NCBI GenBank assembly: GCA_002401345.1
Contig: NVSU01000009.1
Span: 4,546-42,681 of the forward strand
Origin: Candidatus Wolfebacteria bacterium
GTDB lineage: Bacteria; Patescibacteriota; Minisyncoccia; Phycocordibacterales; NVSU01
Direction: 5' to 3'
Length of the DNA: 38,136 nt
Shown: one piece after another, positions 547-19,120 of the stretch
How positions within the stretch are numbered: the first letter of the stretch is position 1
Layout of the letters: the number at the start of each line of letters is the position of its first letter
Position numbers and translations under genes: made by a program
Notes under the pieces: generated by a model
What the model was told of the DNA's origin: nothing
The model's input: only the letters and a program-made list of their open reading frames with translations
Databases searched by the model: none

Positions 547-1269
547 TTATGAACCAGTTTGTTTGAGACTCTTGTCACCTCCCTGTTCGGCCTTAGGTAC
601 AACCCTCAGCTTTTTGGTTTTTGAATTAGGCTCCTCAGTTTTTGGTTTCGACTTAGTCTCAACCTTTTTCACTGAATCGATTTTCTCTTTCACCCGGCGA
701 GCTTTCTGCTCTCGTACTTCTAGTCTTCTCGTTACGATTCTATCTAGAATTTTAACCGCAGCCTTTAAGCCTATTACATCCTTTATGGTGTACGAAAGTT
801 TAATTTCTTTCGACATTTTATCCAATAAATCTGCATCAGCCAACTCCACGAGTACTTTAAGGTTCTTCAGACTGATTACAAATTTCCCTCCATTAGGAGT
901 CTTTATGTAATCAAATTTATCCTTTACTGTCTTTCTATCAAGACCCTGGTAGATAACACTGCCGAACTTTAATCTTTCACGATCACCTTCTTGGCCAATA
1001 ACTTTAAGGCTAAAAACCTTCATCATGTTGGACTCAAGTATATCGAAATATTCGAATACATATGTTCCATCCATAATGCTGTAGCATAGACGTTGTAAAA
1101 AAAGATTACACGCGTTCCAACCAGCCTTTTTAAGGGCGCTTTGAAGTCCTTCATTAAAGGAATTCAAATTTGGATTTTTGCTGTTTACTTTAGCGATTTT
1201 GTGAATAAATTGCATGTACTGTAGACATTCATCAATAAACTCGCCTAAATTAAAATCTGACTTTTTCAT
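547..1269 (-). CDS. Hypothetical protein with basic tail
   Basis: I do not recognise this 240-residue protein. The first ~175 residues look globular and mixed alpha/beta, with no membrane segment or signal peptide. From about residue 180 the chain becomes low-complexity and rich in Lys, Arg, Glu and Ser (KKVETKSKPKTEEPNSKTKK), a disordered basic tail that could contact nucleic acid. It is a single-gene unit: a good promoter lies upstream (1367-1394) and a clear terminator downstream. No nucleotide-binding or catalytic motif is visible. Coding is supported by length, promoter and terminator rather than by homology. Confidence 0.75.
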   Translation of the reverse strand: MKKSDFNLGEFIDECLQYMQFIHKIAKVNSKNPNLNSFNEGLQSALKKAGWNACNLFLQRLCYSIMDGTYVFEYFDILESNMMKVFSLKVIGQEGDRERLKFGSVIYQGLDRKTVKDKFDYIKTPNGGKFVISLKNLKVLVELADADLLDKMSKEIKLSYTIKDVIGLKAAVKILDRIVTRRLEVREQKARRVKEKIDSVKKVETKSKPKTEEPNSKTKKLRVVPKAEQGGDKSLKQTGS

Positions 1270-1366
1270 GTTATCCGTATTTTGTGCTCACATTCGAAAT
1301 TCATCGAACAGAACTCGGTTATAGAACTATTTAGTTTTCAATGATCAGTAATTGACCTTTGAGTAT

Positions 1367-1394
1367 ATTATACATATTAATCAAAAAAAGTCAA
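1367..1394 (-). promoter_or_regulatory. Promoter of the 547-1269 gene
   Basis: On the minus strand, TTGACT (1389-1394), a 16-base spacer and TATAAT (1367-1372) form a near-consensus sigma-70 promoter. The -35 box is embedded in the stem of the rplI terminator, so one sequence ends one transcript and helps start the next. The predicted leader is about 90 bases. Confidence 0.7.
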
Positions 1395-11285: not shown

Positions 11286-11939
11286 TTATTCTTTGGTTTC
11301 TGAAGCAGTTTCACCTTCCTCTTCAGCTTTTCCTCTCTTTTCAACTTCAATTGACGCGAGATCAGGTGATTCACCAGCTTCTTCTTCAGTTTCTTCTTTA
11401 ATTGCAGCAACCGATACAACTACATCATCTTCATTAAGTAATGACGTTACACCACTAGGTAATGTTACATCTTTAACAGCGATGTGATCTTCGAGTGTTT
11501 CAAGTTTTGATATATCAATGGTGATTTCATTTGGAAGTTCTTTTGGTAGTGCTTCTATATGTAATTCATGGAGTACTTTCACAAGTGTACCAAGTCCAGT
11601 TTTGACAGCAGGTGAATCACCTACAAGTTCTATAGGAATATTAGCTTGAACTGGCTTATTCATGTCAATTGCAAGGAAATCAGCGTGTATTGGATTTCCT
11701 TTTACTACATCTACTTGTACATCATGTATAAGTGCTTCTACTTCACCGTCTTTTGTAGCGAGCTTTATGGCCGTTGTTTCTCCTGCTTCTTCCCATATTT
11801 TATTAAAGTCTCTCTCTTCTATAGAAATAGGAGTTGTGTCTTTCTTGTATCCATAAAATACAGCTGGGATTTCTCCCTTTGATCGCAGTGTTTTTAAATC
11901 ACTTTTTGGGTCTCTTTTTTTTACTTTAAGCGTTAACAT
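11286..11939 (-). CDS. rplY: 50S ribosomal protein L25/CTC (bL25)
   Basis: A 217-residue long-form bL25 (CTC type) that binds 5S rRNA. The N-terminal domain has LRSKGEIPAVFYGYK and ALIHDVQVDVVKGNPIHADFLAID. The C-terminal CTC domain (about residues 100-185) has PIELVGDSPAVKTGLGTLV and LPNEITIDIS. An acidic tail rich in Glu follows. A TATAAT box lies exactly six bases before the ATG, predicting a leaderless mRNA. Downstream is the lytic transglycosylase gene (40 bases), possibly co-transcribed. Confidence 0.95.
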   Translation of the reverse strand: MLTLKVKKRDPKSDLKTLRSKGEIPAVFYGYKKDTTPISIEERDFNKIWEEAGETTAIKLATKDGEVEALIHDVQVDVVKGNPIHADFLAIDMNKPVQANIPIELVGDSPAVKTGLGTLVKVLHELHIEALPKELPNEITIDISKLETLEDHIAVKDVTLPSGVTSLLNEDDVVVSVAAIKEETEEEAGESPDLASIEVEKRGKAEEEGETASETKE

Positions 11940-11999: not shown

Positions 12000-12324
12000 A
12001 AAAAACAGCGATAAAATCGCTGTTATAGGTTATAGCGTTGGCCGTGGGGGTCGCCTGAATAAATCAGACTTGATTAGCGTTACTAATCTATTTGGCCGTG
12101 CTATTTTCGCCATTTCACTCGTTAAATATCTAACTGCAACCGCGCCTGGGTGCGCGCGACAGGTCGTCGCAATACGCGCGTCAGCGGATGGATATAGAAT
12201 CTTACAATAGATAGTTCCCCTTAAGGAACATCTGACTCACTACATCATAGTGAATACAGAGATTCAATAGTGAAATGATAGTAAAAAGGAATGTTACCCC
12301 CGATATATGAATGAACTGCTGTTC
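12000..12324 (-). ncRNA. Unassigned structured ncRNA next to the reverse transcriptase
   Basis: This stretch has no open frame of note, is locally GC-rich, and is bounded on the minus strand by its own promoter (12331-12359) and a strong terminator (12004-12024). Visible pairings in RNA order: GAAC/GTTC at the 5' end; GGGGGT (about 12295-12299) with ACCCCC (12046-12051), closing the molecule; GAATCT/AGATTC (12260-12265, 12197-12202) enclosing hairpins TCACTA/TAGTGA and GTTCC/GGAAC; a CGCGCG/CGAC double stem (12153-12180); and GATTAG/CTAATC (about 12070-12087). A motif GGCGA...CACGGCCAA occurs twice near the 3' end. I cannot assign a family. Confidence 0.7.
12004..12024 (-). terminator. ncRNA terminator
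   Basis: AACAGCGA/TCGCTGTT with a 5-base loop. On the minus strand it is followed by TTTTTATTTT, a strong intrinsic terminator. Confidence 0.85.
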
Positions 12325-12330
12325 GTTTTA

Positions 12331-12359
12331 ATAGTACTAAAAAAGGCACTGAATCTCAA
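12331..12359 (-). promoter_or_regulatory. ncRNA promoter
   Basis: Minus-strand TTGAGA (12354-12359), 17 bases, TACTAT (12331-12336). It lies just past the reverse transcriptase terminator, so the RNA is made independently of the RT mRNA. Confidence 0.6.
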
Positions 12360-12369
12360 TGGTATTAAA

Positions 12370-12401
12370 AAATGCCTTGATCTAATCCGATCAAGGCATT
12401 T
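12370..12401 (-). terminator. Reverse transcriptase gene terminator
   Basis: Thirteen-base arms AAATGCCTTGATC/GATCAAGGCATTT with a 6-base loop, followed on the minus strand by a T-run. It overlaps the RT stop codon. Confidence 0.85.
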
Positions 12402-13365
12402 ATGTTGTCTCTTCTCTCATTTCCCTAATGAGTTCTTTTAATCCGAATGATGCTCTGTTATAGTATTTGAGAATTTTCTCCTCAGATGTATTGAGTGTTC
12501 TCTTTCCTTTCTTAGAACTATCCGTAACTTGATTAAACCAACCCATCAATCCTTCTATTTTTCTTGGATTTAATTTTGCTTCATCATACCAAAATAAATA
12601 AAGTAGCATTTCCAACTTTTTCCTTTTACTACGAGGAAGAAATATTTCAGCTTGAGTAGAAGTATTTCGTATCCCTACTCCATTAATGATCTTCCCCTCT
12701 TTTAACTTATTCAAATTAAATGAATGAGTTTTATTGTCATTGGGTGTAAACTCAGCGACTCGAAGTATCGATAATAAAGCCTTTTTCTTTTTCTTACCGA
12801 TGATTGTATCAGAGGTGAAAATCAAATCATCACCAAAACGAGTGTAGGAAATATTGTACTGTGTACAAAGTTCTCTAAAATGTTGATCGATCATTTTCTC
12901 CGCATAGATGTTAAATAGTTTTGGAGATGTTGAATACCCTTCTGCAAGTCCACTTCCACCTGGAGCGAAAAAATATTTTTTTAAATATTCTTTCATGTCA
13001 GGCCAATTTGTAAAATCATAGTATGGAAATAGATTACAGAGCACCCAAGACATTTTCTGAAGATTTACACTTCTAAATGCATCCTTGATATCAGTTATAT
13101 ACCAGTATTCATGGAAAAATCCCTGTCCATTTGTATGAGAAAGGATGTGATCTTTGGTAATTGATCCTCTTCCTTTTATCCATCCAGTTGCACTTGGCAT
13201 TTCGAATATATATTCTTCTATTTTTCGAAGTGCATATGCATGGAGTACTCTTAAAGAATCATTCGGAATATAATGTAGTTTATTTTTATTGTGTTTTCTT
13301 CCACCTCCTTTTTGGGAGGATGGTTCTGGATCCAGAATCAATAGTCCTCTTAATGAAGGTATCAT
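12400..13365 (-). CDS. Retron-like reverse transcriptase
   Basis: A 321-residue RNA-directed DNA polymerase. The motifs run in order: HYIPNDSLRVLHAYALRKI (fingers), GWIKGRGSI then a His (about 61-77), motif A ITDIKDAF (D92, D95), motif B GYSTSPKLFNIYAEKMID (143-160), catalytic motif C RFGDD (D179, D180), and motif D/E NDNKTHSF...KIINGVGI. The order and the IxGR-SI, TSPxLxN and INGV blocks recall retron RTs, whose equivalent of NGV is VTG. The DGR-type SQ motif is missing and no thumb/maturase or endonuclease domain is fused. Only ~106 bases precede it, too few for a usual msr-msd, but a structured ncRNA follows it. Confidence 0.88.
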   Translation of the reverse strand: MIPSLRGLLILDPEPSSQKGGGRKHNKNKLHYIPNDSLRVLHAYALRKIEEYIFEMPSATGWIKGRGSITKDHILSHTNGQGFFHEYWYITDIKDAFRSVNLQKMSWVLCNLFPYYDFTNWPDMKEYLKKYFFAPGGSGLAEGYSTSPKLFNIYAEKMIDQHFRELCTQYNISYTRFGDDLIFTSDTIIGKKKKKALLSILRVAEFTPNDNKTHSFNLNKLKEGKIINGVGIRNTSTQAEIFLPRSKRKKLEMLLYLFWYDEAKLNPRKIEGLMGWFNQVTDSSKKGKRTLNTSEEKILKYYNRASFGLKELIREMREETT

Positions 13366-13413
13366 AGTAGAATGTTTGGTTAGTACACAAGTACATTATG
13401 TCAACGTACATTT

Positions 13414-13451
13414 ATTTAATGTGATTATACATTAAATCTGAAAAAAATCAA
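13414..13451 (-). promoter_or_regulatory. RT promoter with overlapping inverted repeat
   Basis: Minus-strand TTGATT (13446-13451), 16 bases, TATAAT (13424-13429). A perfect inverted repeat ATTTAATGT/ACATTAAAT (13414-13422, 13429-13437) straddles the -10 box, as expected for a repressor operator. The leader would be about 50 bases with repeated GTAC words. Confidence 0.6.
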
Positions 13452-18045: not shown

Positions 18046-18078
18046 AAACACTATCTAGATTTCTCTATGATAGTGTTT
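18046..18078 (-). terminator. Terminator of the EndoIII-like gene
   Basis: AAACACTATC/GATAGTGTTT with an inner TAGA/TCTA pairing, overlapping the stop codon. It separates this gene from the ParB-like gene. Confidence 0.7.
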
Positions 18079-19120
18079 AAATGCCGGTAAATAGATACAT
18101 TTGTGCCGGTTTGCCTCGTAGGCCTCTTGTTATAAGTTTCCCTTGCCGATAATAGTTAGCAGACGGAATATTAAAGCAACAGGTTTTTTCAATTGGACAC
18201 AGAAGACACGATTTATTGAAGGCTTGAACCTGAGACTTGTTCCATATTACTTTGATAGGTTGAATCTCTGTCTTCCTGGCCTTATAGGGACCTATATGAG
18301 ATTCATTACCAGGATGAGTCCCACATAAATCTCTCGAGAGAAACCAAAGTGCATCAGAGAGCTCTTTGCTGCTTATATTATTATTTTTACAATATCGCAC
18401 AGATAGTGAACGTGCCTTTTTCAATATTTCGTCACCAAAGAAATTTTTATTTTCTTTGTATTTACCTTTGGTGATTATTTTATGAGCTACCATAATTCGT
18501 AGTACATGAAAATCTATTGGAATAGGAAATGTAGCACTATCAACAATTTCTGCATGAATGTAAAAATAAATTAACATGCTCACCATTTTTTCTTGAAATC
18601 CGTAAAAGCCGTTTGGATGTGCTGATGAAAATGTTCCTTTGTTCGATATAATCTCACATGTTTTTTTGTAAGAATTTGTACTCTTCAAAAGACTCATAGG
18701 GTTACCATTCCAAAATGTGTGAAGTTTTTGAAAATTGCGTATCCAGAACTTAGGAATTACACTCGCATTAAAGGCGAGACCATTGTCCTGAAGAACACCC
18801 ATCATTTTTTTTATTAGTTTATTTTCCTCGTCAGTAGATTTTATTTCTGAAATATATTCTGGAATAAAAAATTCCGGATGTGCATCACATACATTTGAAA
18901 GACTCATAATTGCCGTTGAACTTTTAATTCCACCGCGCATGTAATAACATGCACAAAAAAGGAATAAGGCATGCTGGATACTCCGTGGTTCGAAATGTTC
19001 AAAAATTTTATCCGGAACCAATTCCAAATCCCTATCATATGGGAATTTTTTTTCTTTCAATCTCTCCAACAAGACATTGAAGATGGACTCTGCGCGCGTA
19101 TAGTCTACATGTAGTTTCAT
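18077..19120 (-). CDS. Endonuclease III-like Fe-S DNA glycosylase candidate
   Basis: A 347-residue protein that I read as a remote member of the HhH-GPD superfamily. GFQEK (174-178) aligns with the hairpin GVGRK of endonuclease III, including the catalytic Lys. PIDFHVLRI (201-209) aligns with VDTHVFR and puts Asp203 at the catalytic Asp. Near the C-terminus, C305-x2-C308-x5-C314 matches the last three ligands of the 4Fe-4S loop (Cx6Cx2Cx5C), and C266 could be the first, displaced by an insert of ~38 residues. It is much longer than the usual ~210 residues. The likely role is base excision or another DNA-damage function, but substrate and family are unproven. Confidence 0.6.
   Translation of the reverse strand: MKLHVDYTRAESIFNVLLERLKEKKFPYDRDLELVPDKIFEHFEPRSIQHALFLFCACYYMRGGIKSSTAIMSLSNVCDAHPEFFIPEYISEIKSTDEENKLIKKMMGVLQDNGLAFNASVIPKFWIRNFQKLHTFWNGNPMSLLKSTNSYKKTCEIISNKGTFSSAHPNGFYGFQEKMVSMLIYFYIHAEIVDSATFPIPIDFHVLRIMVAHKIITKGKYKENKNFFGDEILKKARSLSVRYCKNNNISSKELSDALWFLSRDLCGTHPGNESHIGPYKARKTEIQPIKVIWNKSQVQAFNKSCLLCPIEKTCCFNIPSANYYRQGKLITRGLRGKPAQMYLFTGI

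Follow-up and report, generated by a model that had tools for sequence, protein, structure and literature searches.

Most of the retrons studied so far have a toxic effector near them. In the standard retron cassette, the msr-msd region lies upstream of the reverse transcriptase (RT) gene, and the RT motifs vary even among validated retrons, with Ec48 and Mx65 lacking the Asn of NAxxH and Vc81 and Ec48 deviating at VTG (PMC6868368). We treat an RNA that precedes the RT and is co-transcribed with it as the usual retron layout, not as a defining one. In the defense-associated systems DRT2 and DRT9, an RT is combined with a neighboring ncRNA without a separate effector (PMC12039810, PMC12483538). 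In a literature search of partial coverage, with key surveys (e.g. Mestre 2020) outside its range, we found no account of retrons in Patescibacteria.

Here, we analyzed a 38,136-nucleotide stretch of contig NVSU01000009.1 (the window) from a Candidatus Wolfebacteria genome, in which an RT gene is directly followed, on the same strand, by a structured RNA gene (Table 1). The host genome comprises 897 kb in 24 contigs, is 92% complete (~8% missing), and is the only genome of its genus and family. We consider it likely that the locus is a solitary retron-like module belonging to an RT clade specific to Patescibacteria.

Table 1 Features of the RT-RNA locus in the window and of the adjacent rplY gene
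Feature	Position	Strand	Basis or remark
Promoter-like site of RT, TTGATT-16-TATAAT	13424-13451	-	consensus match only
RT coding sequence, retron-like, 321 aa, intact	12400-13365	-	profiles, fold, tree, motif alignment
Terminator hairpin, strong, directly behind the RT stop, between RT and RNA	12370-12401	-	
Promoter-like site of RNA, TTGAGA-17-TACTAT	12331-12359	-	consensus match only; number not above chance
Structured RNA gene, ~320 nt	12004-12325	-	fold significance; no Rfam family
a1-like 5' closing arm, GGGGGT	12296-12301	-	6 bp only in the window member
Inner closing helix, 5' arm, TCATTTCACT	12269-12278	-	
Tandem hairpin 1, msr-like stem-loop	12235-12255	-	
Tandem hairpin 2, msr-like stem-loop, bulge on 3' side	12209-12233	-	
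GC-rich hairpin region 3' of the tandem hairpins; candidate msd-like (reverse-transcribed) part	12136-12187	-	fold; role inferred
Inner closing helix, 3' arm, AGTGAAATGG	12110-12119	-	
Repeat GGCGA...CACGGCCAA, copy 1	12092-12111	-	sequence
a2-like 3' closing arm, ACCCCC	12046-12051	-	can pair with GGGGGT
Repeat GGCGA...CACGGCCAA, copy 2, overlaps the a2-like arm	12038-12055	-	sequence
Intrinsic terminator of RNA	12004-12024	-	
rplY (L25)	11286-11939		RNA region directly upstream of rplY

The first-pass annotation described the RT as retron-like with intact catalytic motifs, and our analysis agreed on both points. The YxDD motif of the 321-aa protein reads FGDD, and D92 and D179/D180 are invariant in its relatives. 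Among the PADLOC profiles, RT_II-A ranked first (1.3e-21) with III-A and I-B close behind, and the best 25 matches were all retron RT models except for one CRISPR-associated RT model. The NCBIfam model for the St85 retron (retron_St85, NF038233) matched at 1.1e-22 with 80.7 bits, far under its cut-off of 235. Types II-A, III-A, and VI provided the best-scoring PADLOC RT models for the window RT and its relatives; however, many types scored similarly, and the window RT is about equally distant from many of them. The AlphaFold model of the RT had a mean pLDDT of 84.8, and in a fold search of the PDB with this model, ranks 1-15 were occupied by retron RTs, with group II intron RTs next. Region X of the window RT reads HILSH in place of NAxxH, and the region Y triplet reads ING in place of VTG. 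A group II intron was tried as an explanation of the locus and rejected: the RNA had no Rfam match, and RVT_1 was the only Pfam domain of the RT, with no maturase domain.

The gene 5' of the RT encodes an FAD-linked oxidase and ends 106 nt before the RT gene, a distance too short for a typical msr-msd, as the first-pass annotation had noted. The ten neighbors of the RT are mostly ordinary genes, and none of them (0/10) matched PADLOC. Within these ten neighbors and the PADLOC results, we found neither an effector gene nor an effector domain fused to the RT. Across the RT clade, no neighbor family recurred, apart from the syntenic pair L114/L115 and scattered single matches. About 5 kb from the window RT (18077-19120, minus strand), there is a gene for a protein without a Pfam match, a homologue of which stands directly behind the RT in the relative L185 (25% identity, 1e-22); it is probably a common Patescibacteria protein.

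On the other side of the RT, the region 12000-12330 folded at -99.3 kcal/mol (z -4.8), with 0 of 100 shuffles as low, and the closing-stem span gave a z of -4.3. The GGGGGT and ACCCCC arms proposed to close the RNA can pair, and the reported GGCGA...CACGGCCAA motif is present as a direct repeat toward the 3' end of the RNA, with copies ~55 nt apart. The description of the RNA as GC-rich applied to its middle only, the GC content between the closing arms being 44%. Of the promoter and terminator assigned to the RNA, the terminator was borne out, terminator-like sites in the region being above chance (4 found, 0.5 expected), whereas the promoter is a consensus match of a kind no more frequent than expected from shuffles (5 found vs. 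6.4 expected). Given the terminator hairpin that stands between them, the RT and the RNA are probably transcribed separately. A second promoter-like site (TTTACT-17-TATAAT) lies between the RNA terminator and rplY, and with this site and rplY following it, the RNA looks like a transcription unit of its own.

The position of the RNA directly upstream of rplY would suit a leader of the L25 gene, or the RNA could be a divergent housekeeping RNA. However, Rfam returned chance-level matches only for the RNA region, at a permissive threshold too, and its only hits in the window were two tRNAs; in the host genome, the tmRNA match (123.5 bits) and an RNase P candidate, whose 42 bits fall short of the gathering score, are located on contigs other than that of the window. 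For a leader, moreover, the terminator and then the second promoter-like site would intervene before L25. We therefore regard these readings as very improbable.

A DNA search revealed no second copy of the RNA in the 92%-complete host genome. This bears on a diversity-generating retroelement (DGR), in which the RNA would contain the template repeat. DGRs occur in CPR bacteria and would place an RNA near an RT, but the RNA region is single-copy and therefore offers no variable repeat, and retron RT models and folds score best, so that a DGR is hardly credible here. In the 394 genomes of the order, the DNA search with the window RNA gave short matches and no credible homologue, and a reading of the L015-L019 sequences found no comparable RNA. 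Because DNA search yielded no homologous RNA, it is by architecture only that the window RNA is tied to the RNA family described below.

A tree of 88 RTs placed the window RT in a group of 18 rows with an SH-aLRT support of 100 and a long stem, and every one of these rows came from a Patescibacteria genome or record; this was a quick tree, in which the window branch itself is long (1.46). The closest relatives of the window RT were Patescibacteria/CPR records. As the reference set contained no labeled DGR, group II, or Abi RTs, the wider placement of the RT rests on profiles and fold. When ten relatives were scanned with PADLOC, nine were about equally close to many retron types, and L185 had no match at 1e-15. 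Of 13 clade members, 10 have N[AV]xxH in region X, and the triplet that starts region Y usually takes the form [VI][TN]G (ITG or ING in most of the relatives). At the cut-offs used, clade RTs occurred in about 2-3% of the sampled Patescibacteria genomes. A search of genome contigs and viral contigs with the window RT alone as the query gave no matches, and the viral relatives obtained from a profile scan were distant.

Two divergent clade RTs are fused to other domains: the RT of L121 (2920-4164, plus strand) carries a CHC2 zinc ribbon of the DnaG type (Pfam PF01807, 2e-24), and that of L197 (1447-3402, plus strand) carries a peroxide stress domain of the YaaA type (Pfam PF03883, 4.9e-63). Genome G1091 encodes two clade RTs (L213 and L214) separated by ~68 kb, and a closing-stem RNA lies upstream of each. 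In L118 (MHWW01000009.1), a 108-nt copy of the miaA 5' end, 94% identical, lies upstream of the RNA-RT module, and the full miaA is the downstream neighbor of the module (-680..-573 and 1008..1115 relative to the RT start), suggesting a rearrangement or insertion. In L195 (G1068), a 43-nt direct repeat, 81% identical, brackets the RT-RNA module (-170..-128 and 1335..1377 relative to the RT start) and is apparently the 3' end of a dnaJ-like neighbor gene; together with L118, this repeat hints that the module is mobile.

Reading the flanks of the clade RTs, we found that most relatives have next to the RT an RNA of 185-380 nt whose ends are closed by long inverted repeats, and the adjacency of RT and RNA recurs across Patescibacteria. 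The RNA lies upstream of the RT in L110, L116, L117, L118, L119, L120, L121, and L185, downstream in L111, L114, L115, and L195, and on both sides in L112 only. A downstream promoter-to-terminator RNA candidate in L024 (z -7.4) is without the same closing stem, and inspection of the L113 flanks delimited no RNA; L027, L186, L188, and L197 are left out of this tally. The first-pass annotation had suggested that, if the RNA serves the RT, the system would have an inverted gene order compared with retrons and most defense-associated RTs. Since the position of the RNA varies within the RT clade, the inverted order does not define a separate class.

Each of the 15 delimited RNAs, the window RNA included, folded more stably than all of its 100 shuffles (z -3.6 to -8.4). 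In many of the relatives' RNAs, two tandem hairpins occur 44-75 nt past the first closing arm, the first with ~9 bp and a short loop and the second often with a small bulge on the 3' side. Counterparts of the tandem hairpins of the window RNA were found in L112 (both copies), L114, L115, L116, L117, L118, and L120. In L112, L117, and L121, an AGC marks the end of a1; the window RNA has no AGC right after a1. The two RNAs of L112 (DAIDAM010000002.1), located at -178..+39 and 1139..1378 (numbered from the called RT start), are paralogous closing-stem RNAs. A tandem-hairpin module of 56 nt, 95% identical, and a short 3' stretch are common to both, and the middle parts differ. Such a pair fits a constant recognition part joined to a variable template part, and it links the upstream and downstream arrangements.

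The window RNA is a weak member of this family, with an outer stem of 6 bp and a descriptor score of 57, a value that ~4% of native stretches and ~2% of shuffled ones also reach, and its assignment leans on the family. This weak closing stem, the separate terminator and promoter-like site, and the failure to find a sequence homologue in the order would all suit a reading in which the RT and the window RNA are unrelated neighbors, the RNA being a lineage-specific sRNA and the real RNA of the RT lying elsewhere or having been lost. Against this, a similar tandem-hairpin element stands beside the RTs of several relatives, the RNA is again downstream in L111, L112, L114, L115, L195, and probably L024, and the space 5' of the window RT leaves no place for another RNA. 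We therefore consider chance adjacency improbable.

Closing stems (span 170-400 nt, score >= 29) were present in 12/32 flanks of clade RTs, compared with 15/190 native stretches from other parts of these loci (p 4e-5) and 27/800 shuffles (p 2e-9), p-values that are optimistic because the criteria were drawn from the same loci as those tested. Tandem hairpins combined with a closing stem at a score of >= 62 occurred in 8/32 flanks, vs. 3/193 native and 3/800 shuffled stretches. The out-of-sample loci were L213 and L214 only, judged mainly by the closing stem; their RTs were fetched after the pattern had been defined, and closing stems with a score of >= 32 were located immediately upstream of both.

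Covariation was present in one syntenic pair, L114/L115, in which the RNA lies downstream of the RT in both loci and neighbor genes are in common. Here, 21 of 53 aligned pairs were compensatory, compared with 1-4 in slid controls of the same alignment. This was a plain sequence alignment, and because the structure was predicted on the same two rows, complete pairing is to some extent a given, and the information lies in how many of the pairs are compensatory. The MAFFT alignment of the tandem hairpins from eight members was not structure-true, and therefore no covariance model was made, while pair counts on hand-picked hairpins were excluded as circular.

An RT beside a structured ncRNA without a separate effector recalls not only retrons but also DRT2, DRT9, and DRT10. 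In a DRT-like system, the RNA would template or scaffold the synthesis of repeat or homopolymer DNA, not of branched msDNA. DRT2 and DRT9 structures did appear in the PDB fold list of the window RT, at ranks 28 and 37, but behind the 15 leading retron RTs. The sequence match was also weak, with NCBIfam Drt2 and Drt3a reaching 20.8 and 28.7 bits against curated cut-offs of 390 and 200. Furthermore, long closing inverted repeats and an N[AV]xxH form of region X are retron features. Overall, a DRT-like system appears rather unlikely.

The likeness to retrons extends to the RT fold, to the NAxxH-like region X and VTG-like region Y of the clade, and to a structured RNA that is bounded by inverted repeats beside the RT and has short stem-loops near its 5' arm. 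Closing repeats corresponding to a1/a2 of retrons are clear in most clade members, whereas the window RNA has only 6 bp and an inner helix. In contrast to retrons, the window and several relatives have the RNA 3' of the RT, bounded by a promoter-like site and a terminator of its own, no effector is adjacent, and both NAxxH and VTG are substituted in the window RT. The standard cassette layout of an upstream RNA in one transcript is absent in the window, where a terminator intervenes; in many relatives the RNA is upstream.

Most likely, the RT and the RNA together form a retron-like particle that makes msDNA and whose gene order is movable; we infer the use of the RNA as a template, and with it cDNA synthesis. 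The C-terminal part of the RT would bind the msr-like tandem hairpins, and the a1/a2-like closing arms would join the priming site and the template. The RT would then copy a 3' portion of the RNA, beyond hairpin 2, into a short cDNA, which would be retained in an RT-RNA-DNA particle. Because the RNA and the RT appear to be separate transcription units in the window, we propose that the RNA may act in trans, which would leave its position free. By analogy with other retrons, the job of the particle would probably be to sense phages or mobile elements, and a defense role is likely by kinship with retrons rather than from anything at the locus itself. As no effector is encoded alongside, the effector may lie elsewhere or the particle may have a different use.

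A minor but real possibility is that these loci constitute a phylum-specific RT-RNA system, with a position-free, independent RNA gene, up to two paralogous copies of the RNA per RT, and no dedicated effector, whose product or job would be unlike msDNA-based abortive infection.

Under the preferred reading of a solitary retron-like module, the Patescibacteria clade is a deep branch of retron-like systems, apparently not described before and thinly spread in the phylum, with the RNA on either side of the RT, no obvious toxin partner, and no adjacent effector. If this is true, the RT-RNA pair would be the conserved core, and layout and effector would be optional. The clade would provide about 17 RNA-RT pairs with which to test how retron RTs recognize their RNA, as well as new compact RTs for ssDNA production. 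It also raises the question of what role a solitary retron plays in cells with genomes near 1 Mb.
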